Below the pieces are notes generated by a model. It did not search any database and was not told the origin of the DNA. It was given only the letters and a program-made list of their open reading frames with translations. From Anaerolineae bacterium (lineage in GTDB: Bacteria > Chloroflexota > Anaerolineae > Aggregatilineales > Phototrophicaceae), in contig JAPKMO010000008.1 in NCBI GenBank assembly GCA_026645945.1, positions 1-64,000 of the forward strand: a stretch of DNA of 64,000 bases, read 5' to 3'. This document shows, in pieces, positions 47,507-55,380 of this stretch. The translations under genes and the position numbers were made by a program. Positions within the stretch are counted from its first letter, which is position 1; each line of letters opens with the position of its first letter.

Positions 47507-48679
47507 ATGCACAAAAGAAGTGTGATCTATGTGTTTGTCGCGCTGCTGGCGCTGGCGGCGCTTTCGGCTGTGGGGCTGGCCGCCGCGCAGGATGAAAACG
47601 CCGCGCCGCCTTATCTGGGTATCCTGGTGGACGAAGCCCCGGACGGCGGCGTTCTGGTGCAGGATGTGGTGCGGAATGGCCCCGCCGACCAGGCCGGCCT
47701 TAAAAAAGGCGACGTGCTGACGGCCATCAACGATCAGGACGTGTCGCCGGATACTATTCGTGACGTGCTGGCGGCTTTCGCCGTTGGCGATGTCGTCACG
47801 CTCTCGGTCGAGCGCGGCGGCGAGACGCTGACGCTGGAAGCGACCCTGGCCGCCCGGCCTGAAGAACCGGTGACGCCGCGTTCCCGCGATTTCCGCATGT
47901 CAGAACAGGCCATGCTGCTGGGCCTGTGGCTGGAAACCACCGATGATGGCGTGGTGGTGCGCCAGGTGATGGCCGGTTCGCCCGCCGAAACCGCCGGGTT
48001 AAAGGACGGGGACATCATCACCAAAATCGGCGATACCGAGGTTAAACAACTGCGCGACATCCTCGAAGCCGCTCGCAGCCTGAAGGCCGGCGATACGCTG
48101 GCGGTCGAAGTGAACCGGGACGGCGAGACGATCACGCTGGAAGTTGAACTCGCCCAGTTCGGGTTTTCGGAGCGGATGCCGCGCCTGGAAATGCCCTTCA
48201 ACTTCGACATGATGGTCGGCACCCCGCGCCTGGGGGTGGCGTTTGTCATGCTGGATGAGCAGACCGCCCAGGAACGCGGCCTCGACCTGACTGAAGGCGC
48301 ATTGATTACCGAAGTGGTCGAGGATTCGCCGGCGCAGGCCGCCGGGCTGCTGGTGGACGACATCATCACCGCCGTTAATGGCGACCGAGTGGATGCTGAA
48401 CGCACCCTGCGCGACCGCCTGCTGGCGTACGAACCGGGCGATACCATCACGCTTTCGGTGCAGCGCGGCGGCGAACTGCTGGAACTGGACGCCACGCTGG
48501 ACGAGATGGGCATGAACCTTGGCTCGATGATGCCGGGCGGTTTTCACTTCTTCGGCCCCGATGGTTTTGACTTTAACTTTGGGGACGGCCAGCCGGGCTT
48601 TTTCTTCGGACCGCGCGGCTTTATGTTTCCGAACATTCCTCAGCCGCCGTCCGTAGAACCGGCGCAGCCGAACCTCTAA
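47507..48679 (+). CDS. secreted triple-PDZ protein with Phe-rich tail
   Basis: This 390-residue exported protein has a signal peptide (IYVFVALLALAALSAVGLAAAQ) and three PDZ domains. The cores are YLGILVDEAPDGGVLVQDV (about 35-120), LLGLWLETTDDGVVVRQV (about 135-220) and RLGVAFVMLDEQTA to ALITEVVEDSPAQAAGL (about 238-335). Each is followed by the usual GDxV/I and V-x-RGGE strands. No protease domain is attached, unlike HtrA or S41 proteins. The last 50 residues are rich in Phe, Gly and Pro (HFFGPDGFDFNFGDG, FFFGPRGFMF). It may be an adaptor for exported proteases or misfolded proteins. The GGGAGGAG site is strong and a terminator follows. Confidence 0.85.
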   Translation: MHKRSVIYVFVALLALAALSAVGLAAAQDENAAPPYLGILVDEAPDGGVLVQDVVRNGPADQAGLKKGDVLTAINDQDVSPDTIRDVLAAFAVGDVVTLSVERGGETLTLEATLAARPEEPVTPRSRDFRMSEQAMLLGLWLETTDDGVVVRQVMAGSPAETAGLKDGDIITKIGDTEVKQLRDILEAARSLKAGDTLAVEVNRDGETITLEVELAQFGFSERMPRLEMPFNFDMMVGTPRLGVAFVMLDEQTAQERGLDLTEGALITEVVEDSPAQAAGLLVDDIITAVNGDRVDAERTLRDRLLAYEPGDTITLSVQRGGELLELDATLDEMGMNLGSMMPGGFHFFGPDGFDFNFGDGQPGFFFGPRGFMFPNIPQPPSVEPAQPNL

Positions 48680-48708: not shown

Positions 48709-48742
48709 ACCGACCCGGCCCCCGCGCCGGGCCGGTTTTTTT
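48709..48742 (+). terminator. intrinsic terminator of the triple-PDZ gene
   Basis: ACCG-A-CCCGGC (48709-48719) pairs with GCCGGG-C-CGGT (48726-48736), with a single A-C mismatch and a 6-base loop. Seven T follow (48736-48742). It lies 30 bases after the stop codon. Confidence 0.88.
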
Positions 48743-48830
48743 GCGGTGGCAGGATGATAGTTAATCTGTTAGAATTAAGTGTTGTTTAAGTGTTAAAATG
48801 CCGCCCTTTTGGAAGATGGTCATGACCTGA

Positions 48831-51002
48831 ATGATGTCACTCCGTGAACTCCCCGATCTGGAATTAACCCTGGGCGAGCTGGTTCTCGACCTGCTGCGCT
48901 CCCGCTACGAGTACCCCGAACTGGTTTTGAGCGCGCCCCTAGATGCGCGCGGCGAAGTTTCCTCTAATGCCGTCCGCGTTACGCAGCACTATACGACCGC
49001 CCTGCTGTCCTACGGGTTTCCGGCAGACCAGGATGAACTGCGGGCGGCCTCGGAGTGGTTTGCTACCCCGTTCCCCAACGAGAATCACCGCCGCATGGAC
49101 GCGGTAGAGATGAACCGCCTGGAGGCGCTGCTCAGCCTGAATCCCCGGCATGTTTACGTGATGCCGCGCCTGGAACAGCTTATCCAGCAGCGCACACCCA
49201 CCCACTATTTTGATATTCAGTCCAGCGACCTGACGTTTGATACGCTGTGGGCCATTAAAGTGATGGCGCAGGCGCGCGAGGTGGGCATCCTCAACGGCCT
49301 GATGAGCGAGGATGATCTGCGTAAGTGGTCAAACCGCATGGTGCAGGACATTCGCCGGGACAAAGACCTGGCGCTGGCGCTGCGTCTGCGTTACGAACTG
49401 CTGGGCAAGCTGACGCCCAGCCAGCAGCGCAAACATCTGCATAACCTGCTGGTTATCGCCGACCAGAGCGGCGGCCTGTGGGGCTTAAGCCAGGATATGT
49501 TCGGCCTCGGCCAGTCCATCCAGCAGCAGCAGCTCTCGCCGGATTTGATCGCTGACTACCGCGACATCTTCCGCGAGATGGTGCTGAGTACCTGTTATGT
49601 GATCGAAAACCTGATGCCGCTGCTGCCGGCGTATCCTGAACTGGGGCCGGCACTGTCGCGGGCGATGGAGCTGTGGTGGGGAGTTTTTCATGGCCCGAAC
49701 GCGGTGGATACGCTGCGAACCCTGTTTCCTGACCCCTACGACTACCTGCTGATCGTATCGCGCACGCTGGTTTCGCTGCGCGCTTACCTGGGCCAGCCGT
49801 TGATTCGCTGGGGCGCGGCTCACATTCACCGCAAGATGGCGACCCAGCAGGTGCGCCAGGTGGAGCCTGCCGACACGGTGAATATCAAAAAGGCGCTCAA
49901 AGAGTGGATTCAGTTCGACCTGGAAAAACCGCCGGAGCAGCTTCGCCTGGGCATGTCGGACTCAAACGTCGTCCGCATCCGCCCGCGCATCTGCAATCCC
50001 ATGCAGCCGGAAGACGACTCGTTCCGCCTGCACATCCCCAACGCCGATTCGCTGGTGGTTAAATACGGCCCGATTGAGGAGATTAAACGGGAGAGCGAAC
50101 ACTACGAACGGCTGCCGCTGGCAATCAAGGAATATTTCGTCAACATTCCGCAGCAGCCCACCTATGTAGACCAACACCAGCGCCGCGCTTACGTCATCAT
50201 GGCCGACCTGGGCCGCTACCGGACGCTGTACGAGGCGCTGCAAAAAGTGCCGCAGATTCACGGCCTGCTGGTGGATGAACTCGGCCCGTTCCTGCTGCGG
50301 ATTCATCAGGGCGATGGCCGCCACCGCCGCTACGTGCAGGAAGGGCTGCTGATGCAGATTTACCTGCTGCCGATGCAGCAGCATATTCGGAACATTTTTG
50401 GTTATATACTGGAAAATAAACTGCTGGAGAATACGGATAAACAGAAATACGCGCCGGAGCTGCAGCGCGCGCTGCTGGAAAAAATCGGGCATCTGGTGCG
50501 CCGCCAGCTTGACCTGGAAGCCTTCCCGGTTGCCTGTATGCACGGCGATCTGCACACCCGTAATATCATGGTGCGCCGCCTCAAACAGCGGGAAAATCTC
50601 GACCGGCAGGATGAACTGGATTTTAAGCTGATTGACCTGGAGAAGTTTCGGCGTAACGGCGACGCGGCACTGGACATCGGGGAACTGCTGGTAGACCTGG
50701 AACTGCTGCGCGCGCCCCGGAACATCGCCGCCGAGCGCGACCCGATTTTTTCGCTGATGAAGGCGCTTGAGGACACCTATGCTGCCTTCGCCGCCGAGCG
50801 CGAAGATGCAACCTTCCCCATCCGCGTGCAGTTGGCGCAGGCGCGTTCGTTGATCCGTATCGCCAAGGGGCGCACCAAACAGGGGGAGGTCGCGCTGCGC
50901 GAAAGCCGGAAAGGCCCGGCCATCCGCATTGCCTTCGAGGCCTTAAACGATGCCGGCCAGGCGCTGGAATACTTGAAGCAGGTGGTGGAAACGCTGGGTT
51001 AG
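48831..51002 (+). CDS. tandem paralogue 1: helical-repeat domain fused to APH-fold kinase
   Basis: I do not recognise this 723-residue architecture. Residues 1 to about 345 are all-helical. The stretch GEVSSNAVRVTQHYTTALLSYGF followed by ASEWFATPFP resembles one alpha/alpha unit of prenyltransferase/terpene-cyclase toroids, and RDKDLALALRLRYELLG resembles another. Residues from about 390 form an aminoglycoside-phosphotransferase-fold kinase. The ATP-binding Lys is K411 (VVKYGP), with a partner Glu at 421 or 423. The hinge is AYVIMADL, the catalytic loop is HGDLHTRN (D573, N578), and the metal Asp is D602 in LIDLEK. A helical tail of about 70 residues closes the protein. All catalytic residues are present, so it should phosphorylate something. 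There is no signal peptide or membrane segment. The ATG at 48831 has GGAAGA only at a long distance. The second paralogue begins 49 bases later. Confidence 0.85.
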   Translation: MMSLRELPDLELTLGELVLDLLRSRYEYPELVLSAPLDARGEVSSNAVRVTQHYTTALLSYGFPADQDELRAASEWFATPFPNENHRRMDAVEMNRLEALLSLNPRHVYVMPRLEQLIQQRTPTHYFDIQSSDLTFDTLWAIKVMAQAREVGILNGLMSEDDLRKWSNRMVQDIRRDKDLALALRLRYELLGKLTPSQQRKHLHNLLVIADQSGGLWGLSQDMFGLGQSIQQQQLSPDLIADYRDIFREMVLSTCYVIENLMPLLPAYPELGPALSRAMELWWGVFHGPNAVDTLRTLFPDPYDYLLIVSRTLVSLRAYLGQPLIRWGAAHIHRKMATQQVRQVEPADTVNIKKALKEWIQFDLEKPPEQLRLGMSDSNVVRIRPRICNPMQPEDDSFRLHIPNADSLVVKYGPIEEIKRESEHYERLPLAIKEYFVNIPQQPTYVDQHQRRAYVIMADLGRYRTLYEALQKVPQIHGLLVDELGPFLLRIHQGDGRHRRYVQEGLLMQIYLLPMQQHIRNIFGYILENKLLENTDKQKYAPELQRALLEKIGHLVRRQLDLEAFPVACMHGDLHTRNIMVRRLKQRENLDRQDELDFKLIDLEKFRRNGDAALDIGELLVDLELLRAPRNIAAERDPIFSLMKALEDTYAAFAAEREDATFPIRVQLAQARSLIRIAKGRTKQGEVALRESRKGPAIRIAFEALNDAGQALEYLKQVVETLG

Positions 51003-51050
51003 CTCAGGCATCCGGTGCCGTGACGCCGCCTGGGGGAGACGGGGTTGGTC

Positions 51051-53231
51051 ATGGCTATTAATTTTAACTCGAATGAGTTTAAACGAACGCTCGTTAATCT
51101 GGCGATGAACGTGCTGCGCGCGCCGGAGGAGTTTTCGTCGTTCATCCTGACCGAACCGGACATCCAGGGCGAAGTTAATGCCGAAGCCATGCGGATGAGC
51201 CTGTATTATGCGATGGCGCTGCTGGCTTACGGCTTCGCGCCGGAGGACACCGCCCTTAAAGAATCGGCCCGCTGGTTTGCCACGCCTTTTCCCACCGCCC
51301 AGCGCAACCAGGTAGACGCGGCGGAAATGTACCGGCTGGAAGGCACGCTGCTGCTGCGCCCGTTCGACCCTTCGGTGCAGGGGCGGCTGAAGCAGCTTGT
51401 TAAACAGCGCACGCCGGATGGCCGCCGGTTCGAGATTCAGGACCCGCCCTCGCAGTACGATTTGCTGTGGGCGCTTAAGCTGCTGAACCTGGCGCACAAA
51501 CAAAAAGTGCTGGAACCCGGCCTGATCGTCATGGATGAACTGCGCGATATGCTGGACAATGCCATGCTGTCGGACTCGCTGCCGGACAAAGACCTGGCGC
51601 TGGCGCTGCGCCTGCGGTTTGAACTGTTCGGCGGGCTGCTGCCGGAGCAGGAGGAAAAACTCCTGCGCGGGCGGTTGATTAACAATGCCCGGCTCAACGG
51701 CCTGTGGGACCTGACACACGACAATACCTGGCTGGCCGAGCGAATGCGCCACCACGATTTATCGCTGATGGACATCCAGCAGCACTACCGCGCCTTCTGG
51801 AAAGTGATTCAAAGCGCCTGCACGGTGATCGAAAACCTGTCGGTTTTGATGCCCACCTATGGCGTGGAACTGCACCAGGTGCTGCTGCCGGCGATTGACC
51901 TGTGGTGGAGCGCCTTTAACGCCGACCAGTCCGACGATGCCGCCGGCGAGTTGCGGACGATTTTTTCCGGCAGGACGGAAGATTATTTGATGTCCCTGTC
52001 GCTGACGTTAATCACGCTGCGGGCCTTCTTGGACGAACCGCTTATTCACCGCGCGGCTTCGTATGTGCATACCCAGATGCTCGATCACCCTGGTGAGCGG
52101 TCGTCGCCGTCGGAAAAAGAAATGCTTAAAAAGGCGCTGCGCGACTTTTTGCAGGTAGAGTTCGAGCAGGAGCCAGAACGGCTGAATCTGGGCCTTTCCG
52201 GCGCGGTTGTGCTGCGCGTGCATCCGGTTGTCCGCAGCCCGCTGTACAGCGAGGAGACGATTTTTAACAAACCGCTGGTGATTAAATACGGGCCGGCGGA
52301 TGAAATCCGGCTCGAACACGAAAACTACAAAAAACTGCCGGATGTGATACGGGGCTATTTTGTGAACATCCCGCGCGAAATGTACCCCGACCCGACGCAG
52401 CAGCGGGCCTATGTCATCATGCCTGATCTGTACCAGTTCAAGACGCTGTACGAAAGCCTGTCCCTTCTGCCGCGCATTTACCCGGCGTTGATGCAACGTT
52501 TAAGCGCGTTTTTAATCACCATGCACCGAGCCAACTCGTACAACCCCGTTCGCGCCCCGCGCGGCATCCTGTACGACCTGTACCTGCTGCCGATGCAGCA
52601 GCACGTCGCGCTGATTTTTAACTTCCTCAACAGCGAAAAACTGCTGGTCGAAGATCATGACCGGCAGCACGCCAACATGCTCCAGCAAAAGCTGGTTGAG
52701 CAGCTTGCCGATCTGACCCGTTACCAGATGCAGATTGAGGGGTTTCCGCGCGCGTATATGCATGGCGACCTGCACACCCGCAATATCATGATTCGCCACA
52801 GCGCCCCCCACACCAACGGTGAGGTCGAAGTGGCTATCAAACTGATTGACCTGGAGAAAGTGCGCGCCGACGGCGACGCGGCGCTTGATCTGGGACAGCT
52901 TTTGGTGGACGTGGACCTGCTGCTGGGCGACCCGCGCCGTTTGAACGATTACCACAGGCCGCTGGTCGAAATCATCCAGCAGGTGGTGGCGGCCTACCAG
53001 GAGTTTGCCCGCGAACGGCGAGACGCGCAGTTCACTACGCGCGTGTATCTGGCGCGCGCACGCGCTTATGTCCGGGTGGCGAAGGGCAAAACCCGCCAGA
53101 TCGAGCAGCACTTACGGAACGGGCGGCCTGGGTTGGCGCTGGACGTAACACGCGAGATGCTTTCGCATGGCGAGCAGGCCGCCAAACACCTGCAAACCGT
53201 GTTAAAGTCCTTAAAGCAGGCTGTTTCCTGA
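51051..53231 (+). CDS. tandem paralogue 2: helical-repeat domain fused to APH-fold kinase
   Basis: This 726-residue protein is a full-length paralogue of the preceding gene with the same spacing of motifs. The N-terminal repeat reads GEVNAEAMRMSLYYAMALLAYGF then SARWFATPFP, and PDKDLALALRLRFELFG matches the second conserved block. The kinase half has K412 (VIKYGP), the hinge AYVIMPDL, YLLPMQQH, HGDLHTRN (D573, N578) and LIDLEK (D600). The C-terminal helices differ most. By eye identity is moderate overall but high in these blocks, so the duplication is old. Retention of both sets of catalytic residues argues for distinct roles or a heterodimer. The ATG at 51051 follows GGGG; a TTG at 51045 is possible. 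A hairpin and a separate promoter follow, so the two genes form their own operon. Confidence 0.85.
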   Translation: MAINFNSNEFKRTLVNLAMNVLRAPEEFSSFILTEPDIQGEVNAEAMRMSLYYAMALLAYGFAPEDTALKESARWFATPFPTAQRNQVDAAEMYRLEGTLLLRPFDPSVQGRLKQLVKQRTPDGRRFEIQDPPSQYDLLWALKLLNLAHKQKVLEPGLIVMDELRDMLDNAMLSDSLPDKDLALALRLRFELFGGLLPEQEEKLLRGRLINNARLNGLWDLTHDNTWLAERMRHHDLSLMDIQQHYRAFWKVIQSACTVIENLSVLMPTYGVELHQVLLPAIDLWWSAFNADQSDDAAGELRTIFSGRTEDYLMSLSLTLITLRAFLDEPLIHRAASYVHTQMLDHPGERSSPSEKEMLKKALRDFLQVEFEQEPERLNLGLSGAVVLRVHPVVRSPLYSEETIFNKPLVIKYGPADEIRLEHENYKKLPDVIRGYFVNIPREMYPDPTQQRAYVIMPDLYQFKTLYESLSLLPRIYPALMQRLSAFLITMHRANSYNPVRAPRGILYDLYLLPMQQHVALIFNFLNSEKLLVEDHDRQHANMLQQKLVEQLADLTRYQMQIEGFPRAYMHGDLHTRNIMIRHSAPHTNGEVEVAIKLIDLEKVRADGDAALDLGQLLVDVDLLLGDPRRLNDYHRPLVEIIQQVVAAYQEFARERRDAQFTTRVYLARARAYVRVAKGKTRQIEQHLRNGRPGLALDVTREMLSHGEQAAKHLQTVLKSLKQAVS

Positions 53232-53295: not shown

Positions 53296-53324
53296 TTGAA
53301 GCCCTGCCGCCCGGTGACTATAAT
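53296..53324 (+). promoter_or_regulatory. promoter of the nucleotide-sugar dehydrogenase gene
   Basis: TTGAAG (53296-53301) and a perfect TATAAT (53319-53324) are exactly 17 bases apart, about 45 bases upstream of the start codon. This also shows that the reading frame upstream of 53368 is not coding. Confidence 0.8.
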
Positions 53325-54696: not shown

Positions 54697-55380
54697 ATGG
54701 AACTGCCCTTTCACCTGCGCGCGCTGCCGCCGGAAGCCCTGGATGTGCTGCGCTTCTTTGGCGGCCTGGACGAACCTCTGGCGCACGCTTCGATCATCAT
54801 GGAAGAAGTGGGGTTAAGCGAACGCGCCTTTGGTAAGGTTGTGCGGCGGCTGGTGACGAAAGGGTATCTCCAGATGGGGGGCGACCAGATTTATCGGCTG
54901 ACGGACTTCGGCCAGACGGCGCTGGAAGAACTTTCCGATTATGACGAAACCGCCCCGCAGGAAGAATCCTTTGATGAGGATGAATCGGCGTCTGCGGAGC
55001 GGCAGATTGTGCGGCGGCTGGTGATCGCGCTGCCGCGCTGCCTGGCGGCGGGGTCGTCCAGCAGTGTCCAGGTGGGGTTTAACCGGGCAGCGGTGGACGT
55101 GCCGCCGGTCGAACTGGTGGTGCGGCTGTCGGTGGTCAACGGCGAGCCGCTGCGCCCCCAGGAGCGCACTTATCATCTGGGGCGTGAGGCCGACCATCAC
55201 ACGTTTCAGGTCACACCGGGGCGTTATACGCGGATGCGCCTGCGCGTGCAGGTGTACCAGCTCGGCCCCAACCCCGACGATATAGCGGTGGCGGGCGGTT
55301 TGTATGTGGATGTGCCGGTCGCGGCGGCAGCCGACGAAAACCGGGCGGCCTTTGGAGCGGATATTATCGTCACGGTTTAA
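54697..55380 (+). CDS. winged-helix protein with C-terminal beta domain
   Basis: I do not recognise this 227-residue protein as a family. Residues 1 to about 78 look like a winged helix (ALDVLRFFGG, then VGLSERAFGKVVRRLVTKGYLQM and IYRLTDFGQTALEEL), similar to MarR-type domains. A strongly acidic linker follows (about 80-100). The last 125 residues are beta-rich (VQVGFNRAAVDVPPVELVVRLSVV, RYTRMRLRVQVYQL) and recall a beta-sandwich. It lies 15 bases after the dehydrogenase gene and 7 bases before the acyltransferase gene, so it is in the same operon. It could be a ligand-sensing regulator or a protein-protein adaptor. Confidence 0.65.
   Translation: MELPFHLRALPPEALDVLRFFGGLDEPLAHASIIMEEVGLSERAFGKVVRRLVTKGYLQMGGDQIYRLTDFGQTALEELSDYDETAPQEESFDEDESASAERQIVRRLVIALPRCLAAGSSSSVQVGFNRAAVDVPPVELVVRLSVVNGEPLRPQERTYHLGREADHHTFQVTPGRYTRMRLRVQVYQLGPNPDDIAVAGGLYVDVPVAAAADENRAAFGADIIVTV

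Follow-up and report, generated by a model that had tools for sequence, protein, structure and literature searches.

The two adjacent genes at 48831 to 53231 of the window (the whole stretch of DNA analyzed, 64,000 nucleotides), here called ORF A and ORF B, are a new combination built from known domains: a predicted N-terminal alpha/alpha toroid followed by a C-terminal kinase with intact catalytic motifs. We tentatively favor the reading that both proteins are signaling or regulatory kinases, in which the toroid binds a ligand or partner and so regulates an active kinase of the TCAD9/APH type; we regard this as plausible, though short of probable. The locus comprises the following features:

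48715 to 48735, + strand: intrinsic-terminator-like hairpin (7 G-C pairs) and T-run (TTTTTTT) that would end the upstream PDZ gene; consensus match only
48746 to 48775, + strand: possible A-B promoter with an extended -10-like site; weak pattern match (9/12)
48831 to 49865, + strand: A residues 1 to 345, predicted six-hairpin alpha/alpha-toroid domain (AlphaFold2 and structure matches)
49866 to 51002 including the stop, + strand: A residues 346 to 723, predicted APH-fold, TCAD9-like kinase with K411, E421, D573, N578, and D602 (Pfam and fold matches)
51051 to 52106, + strand: putative toroid domain of B, from homology to A along the entire domain
52107 to 53231 including the stop, + strand: TCAD9-type kinase domain of B with intact K412, D573, and D600 (Pfam TCAD9)
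53296 to 53324, + strand: promoter-like site of the next gene, a UDP-sugar dehydrogenase gene (TTGAAG-17-TATAAT, 10/12; pattern match only)

ORF A (48831 to 51002, + strand) encodes 723 residues from an ATG start. ORF B (51051 to 53231, + strand) follows after a gap of 48 bp and encodes 726 residues from its ATG, or 728 from a TTG located 6 nt upstream. The two proteins aligned end to end with 41% identity over 719 residues (E = 3e-164), confirming the claim of an earlier note that neighboring genes for 723 and 726 residues share one domain order: A and B are full-length tandem paralogues. The kinase motifs were intact at the positions which that note had given, with the Lys motif reading VVKYG in A (K411) and VIKYG in B (K412), the HGDLHTRN Asp at D573 in both proteins, and the LIDLEK Asp at D602 in A and D600 in B. 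The catalytic Lys, Asp, Asn, and Asp (K411, D573, N578, and D602 in A) were invariant across all aligned relatives, the distant class-wide family included. Among the closest relatives, dN/dS ranged from 0.10 to 0.13 for A and from 0.10 to 0.23 for B; these low values point to purifying selection on both genes and thus to maintenance of both copies. In-frame stops encountered in some homologues were an artefact of matches over-extended beyond the true stop. Judged from the pattern-matched sites and the 48-bp gap, A-B appears to form its own two-gene unit, a separation suggested by the promoter-like site that precedes the next gene.

Pfam detected no domain in residues 1 to 345 of A or B. Modeled alone with AlphaFold2, this region of A gave a pLDDT of 90.2 and a pTM of 0.90, and its helices form six hairpins. 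The best structural match was squalene-hopene cyclase (Z 16.7, 267 residues, 3.8 Å), and others were drimenyl diphosphate synthase, the single-domain cyclase MstE, and complement C3/C5, with the C3b thioester domain (TED) at Z 15.9. In a full-length model of A built from 24 sequences (pLDDT 86.4, pTM 0.52), residues 3 to 322 also matched the C3b TED (Z 16.0); given the low full-chain pTM, the relative placement of toroid and kinase is not predicted by this model. A Foldseek search with the A toroid alone gave no match at E < 1e-3 (the best, at 6e-3, was complement TED), and support for the fold comes from the VIA structure ranking rather than Foldseek. Since PDB sequence searches, run with A alone and with toroid and kinase profiles, returned chance matches only, the relation to known folds is drawn from structure comparison. 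LanC was absent among the fold matches listed for the A toroid, which is no evidence of its absence. Taking the domain model together with the matches at Z 15 to 17, we confidently predict that residues 1 to 345 of A form an alpha/alpha toroid of the kind seen in terpene cyclases and the TED, in line with the earlier note, which had likened these helices to prenyltransferase/terpene-cyclase-like repeats.

Within the toroid, conserved positions cluster mainly on every other helix, six in all (mean entropy, 1.26 versus 2.12 bits), and these carry 14 of the 17 polar or aromatic residues with the strongest conservation (R49, Y54, E93, E98, W140, K143, K178, D179, R248, C255, E259, N260, Y305, and R311). 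These six helices are probably the lumen wall of the toroid, with inner and outer helices assigned by alternation along the chain and not from coordinates. The class II terpene cyclase motif DxDD was absent in all 14 N-domains scanned, as was the thioester motif CGEQ. On these defining motifs, the toroid falls outside both the class II terpene cyclases and the thioester proteins. LanC-type Cys-Cys-His zinc ligands were likewise not found: C255 is the one Cys among the invariant columns, and His does not occur in them.

In the kinase half, residues 357 to 722 of A matched APH-fold kinases at Z 16 to 18.6: Rv3168, methylthioribose kinase, PsiK, fructosamine-3-kinase (FN3K), APH(3') (about 17), and choline kinase. 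Further small-molecule-kinase fold relatives were 25-hydroxysteroid kinase and glucosamine kinase, and LxmK, the APH-fold kinase of the lexapeptide dehydratase complex, was also among the structural matches (Z 16.8). This half of A has complete catalytic motifs, is predicted to adopt a bilobal APH/choline-kinase fold, and may have phosphotransferase activity. With Pfam, the B kinase matched TCAD9 (PF19974) above the curated cut-off of 40 (8.1e-11, 42.2 bits); the A kinase matched it below that cut-off (7.2e-7, 29.2 bits) and also matched Kdo kinase and APH weakly. These profile matches would place the kinase of A and B near a known family, as TCAD9-like. TCAD9 (ternary complex-associated domain 9) has been named at CRISPR-linked loci and belongs to conflict systems linked to vWA-MoxR-VMAP (PMC10910872), and APH-like kinases have been tied to vWA-MoxR conflict systems (PMC7159879). 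The window's own genome also encodes an 883-aa fusion of a response regulator, a TCAD9 kinase, and SIR2 (L132:5672-8320, G000:C215) and a 683-aa Clp_N-TCAD9 protein (L131:6442-8493, G000:C172).

The neighbors of A-B in the window are peptidase, sugar-nucleotide, GT87, MGDG-synthase-like, lipid, and acyltransferase genes. By Pfam, none of the 14 flanking genes in the window encodes vWA, MoxR, or VMAP. Upstream, 47507 to 48679 encodes a putatively secreted protein that consists almost wholly of three PDZ domains and in which no protease domain was found; downstream, 54697 to 55380 encodes a winged-helix protein whose C-terminal half has no assignment and whose gene overlaps the acyltransferase ORF near the start of the latter. 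In a neighborhood survey of homologues, a check put forward in the earlier note, the surroundings were common to the closest relatives only, with no neighbor conserved in more distant ones, and operon-based inference of function failed.

These observations bear on a serious rival explanation, one that we nevertheless consider unlikely: that A and B are bifunctional metabolic enzymes acting in envelope metabolism, with a toroid that takes up a lipid, isoprenoid, or glycan precursor, to bind or to convert it, and a kinase that phosphorylates this precursor. The structural proximity of the toroid to terpene cyclases and of the kinase to small-molecule kinases fits this explanation, as do the vertical inheritance of A (see below) and the sugar-nucleotide, GT87, MGDG-synthase-like, and acyltransferase genes nearby. 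However, the DxDD motif is missing, the conserved toroid residues are mostly charged or polar, and a charged wall would argue against a hydrophobic terpene substrate. Nor is the neighborhood conserved beyond close relatives, and the same toroid also serves a TIR protein.

The toroid profile matched 29 of the 154 genomes of the window's order and, among 400 genomes drawn evenly across the phylum, only the window's own. Named relatives were Anaerolineae, Aggregatilineales, or Chloroflexi MAGs, except for one Bacteroidetes-labelled record, the contig of which is the same as that of G009, a genome within the window's genus. No homologues of A were found in plasmid or phage records, and PADLOC returned nothing convincing for A or B. 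A is a vertically inherited gene of one Anaerolineae order, usually single copy. B adjoins A in only 4 of the 29 toroid-carrying genomes: the tandem is intact in G000 (the window's genome), G005, and G006, and in G013 the two genes fall at the ends of separate contigs, bordered by the same genes. In the phylogenetic tree, the four B rows formed a clade outside the genus A clade (support, 99/99) on a long stem, indicating that B is a paralogue of early origin or rapid evolution. At the corresponding locus of G008, the sister of G013, B is missing, a pattern suggestive of loss.

This distribution did not bear out the paired or heterodimeric function suggested in the earlier note. That A and B are an obligate heterodimer or a complementary pair would fit their tandem order, the 48-bp gap with apparently one transcription unit, and the purifying selection acting on both. 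However, the pair is missing from 25 of the 29 toroid-carrying genomes, A alone being the rule, and G008 dispenses with B where its sister keeps it. Given this copy number, we reject the heterodimer as a general rule and consider it improbable overall.

The toroid recurs on a different output domain. In G001, a genome of the window's genus, a 616-aa protein at locus L060 joins this toroid to a TIR domain (TIR_2, 60.8 bits), with a region of about 170 residues plus the TIR domain in place of the kinase; its toroid retains 13 of the 14 conserved polar residues. The gene order is hsdM-hsdS-TIR-[toroid-TIR]-pentapeptide-hsdR-TIR, a type I restriction operon into which TIR genes have been inserted, and it looks like an embedded defense cassette. 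The fusion was seen once, in a single MAG. Three TIR genes in all lie at this locus (L060:23-11613, G001:C180), and the pentapeptide-repeat protein encoded between hsdS and hsdR has a likely membrane segment. Elsewhere, a further toroid domain, a divergent one, runs off a contig end (L125:8918-9922, G057:C48).

Beyond the order, the kinase profile detected distant proteins in other Anaerolineae families, and a profile built on those detected further proteins in a different class of the phylum. These distant toroid-kinases (L126 to L130 and L152 to L157) have the two-domain order of A, an intact kinase, and a longer C terminus. Their N-domain is helical and very divergent, in the same register as that of A; the profile comparison (hhalign E = 0.0044, probability only 8%) makes kinship with the A toroid suggestive at best. 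An AAA_22/AAA_16 ATPase gene lies directly 3' of the toroid-kinase gene in L126 and L130, and a homologue is divergently placed beside it in L129. We read this ATPase as STAND-like from its motifs, there being no curated match. Divergent toroid-kinase plus STAND-like AAA ATPase (L126:6781-10339, L130:4401-8584, L129:6030-10181) is a candidate two-gene system in Anaerolineae, and homologues of the ATPase family are present in the window's own genome on contigs other than that of A-B.

If A and B are regulatory kinases, the toroid, which has no known cyclase catalytic motif, would use the wall of conserved alternate helices to bind a ligand or partner, and its binding state would control the C-terminal TCAD9/APH-type kinase, which would use ATP to phosphorylate a small molecule or a partner protein. 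In this reading, A is the widespread gene of the order and B a tandem paralogue kept in some species, probably diverged in ligand or substrate rather than an obligate partner. The toroid-TIR fusion between hsdS and hsdR, the STAND-like ATPase beside distant toroid-kinases, and the occurrence of TCAD9 with a response regulator and SIR2 and with Clp_N in the window's own genome all point toward signaling or conflict, and the published ties of APH-like kinases and TCAD9 to conflict and CRISPR-linked loci fit this reading. Against a conflict role stand the vertical inheritance of A, its non-defense neighborhood with neighbors unconserved in distant relatives, and the lack of plasmid or phage homologues. 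Binding in the lumen, regulation of the kinase by the toroid, and a part in stress or conflict are our inferences for A and B. Reuse of the toroid on a TIR effector in a restriction operon suggests that it is a reusable sensing module. More doubtful is the extension that it is a previously undescribed bacterial lumen-ligand sensor with interchangeable outputs (TCAD9/APH kinase or TIR), which would make such proteins a novel receptor class for stress or immunity in Chloroflexota. If so, the fold familiar from terpene cyclization and the complement thioester domain would also be a bacterial input domain, paired with a kinase in one protein and with a TIR effector in another.

Among known systems, class III/IV lanthipeptide synthetases (LanKC/LanL) also combine a kinase and an alpha/alpha toroid in one polypeptide, in the order lyase-kinase-cyclase. 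The earlier note had called the layout of A and B the opposite of theirs, and this was borne out, with the toroid preceding the kinase in A. The comparison with these enzymes holds at the level of fold but not beyond it: in A and B the order is reversed, with the kinase closing the chain, no lyase domain is present, the kinase is of the APH/TCAD9 type, and there is no conserved biosynthetic neighborhood. We therefore reject A and B as lanthipeptide synthetases on the grounds of toroid-kinase order and missing lyase domain. An analogous peptide- or protein-modifying enzyme of RiPP biosynthesis would be compatible with the shared kinase and toroid, with the LxmK match, and with the class III LanKC cyclase domains, which likewise lack zinc ligands (PMC10604976); it has only a slim chance, given the lyase and domain-order differences and the absence of any conserved neighbor gene across distant relatives. 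That A and B are resistance enzymes of the aminoglycoside type, their helical half a scaffold of no relevance, is very unlikely, despite the APH similarity in Pfam and the APH(3') fold match, since inheritance is vertical inside one order with none in plasmid records, the toroid half is conserved, and the kinase resembles TCAD9. We found no description of a toroid-kinase layout in the open-licence literature, in keeping with the earlier note's statement that it knew of no such system.

Squalene-hopene cyclase, MstE, drimenyl diphosphate synthase, and the complement C3/C5 TED share with A the six-hairpin toroid (about 250 to 270 residues, Z 15 to 17), whereas A and B lack DxDD and CGEQ and have no sequence similarity to solved members. 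The distant Chloroflexota toroid-kinases share domain order and an intact kinase but differ in their divergent N-domain, the extra C-terminal region, and, at three loci, the STAND-like ATPase. The toroid-TIR protein shares the N-terminal toroid but has no kinase and sits in a restriction operon. Closest on the kinase side is TCAD9, with the B kinase over the curated cut-off, A close to it, and active-kinase motifs in common; A and B differ from it in the N-terminal toroid, which is new to TCAD9 as far as we found, in the below-cut-off score of A, and in having no vWA or MoxR among the neighbors examined. No TCAD9 function was reported in the literature that we found, and A and B would give it a simple two-domain representative suited to expression and assay.
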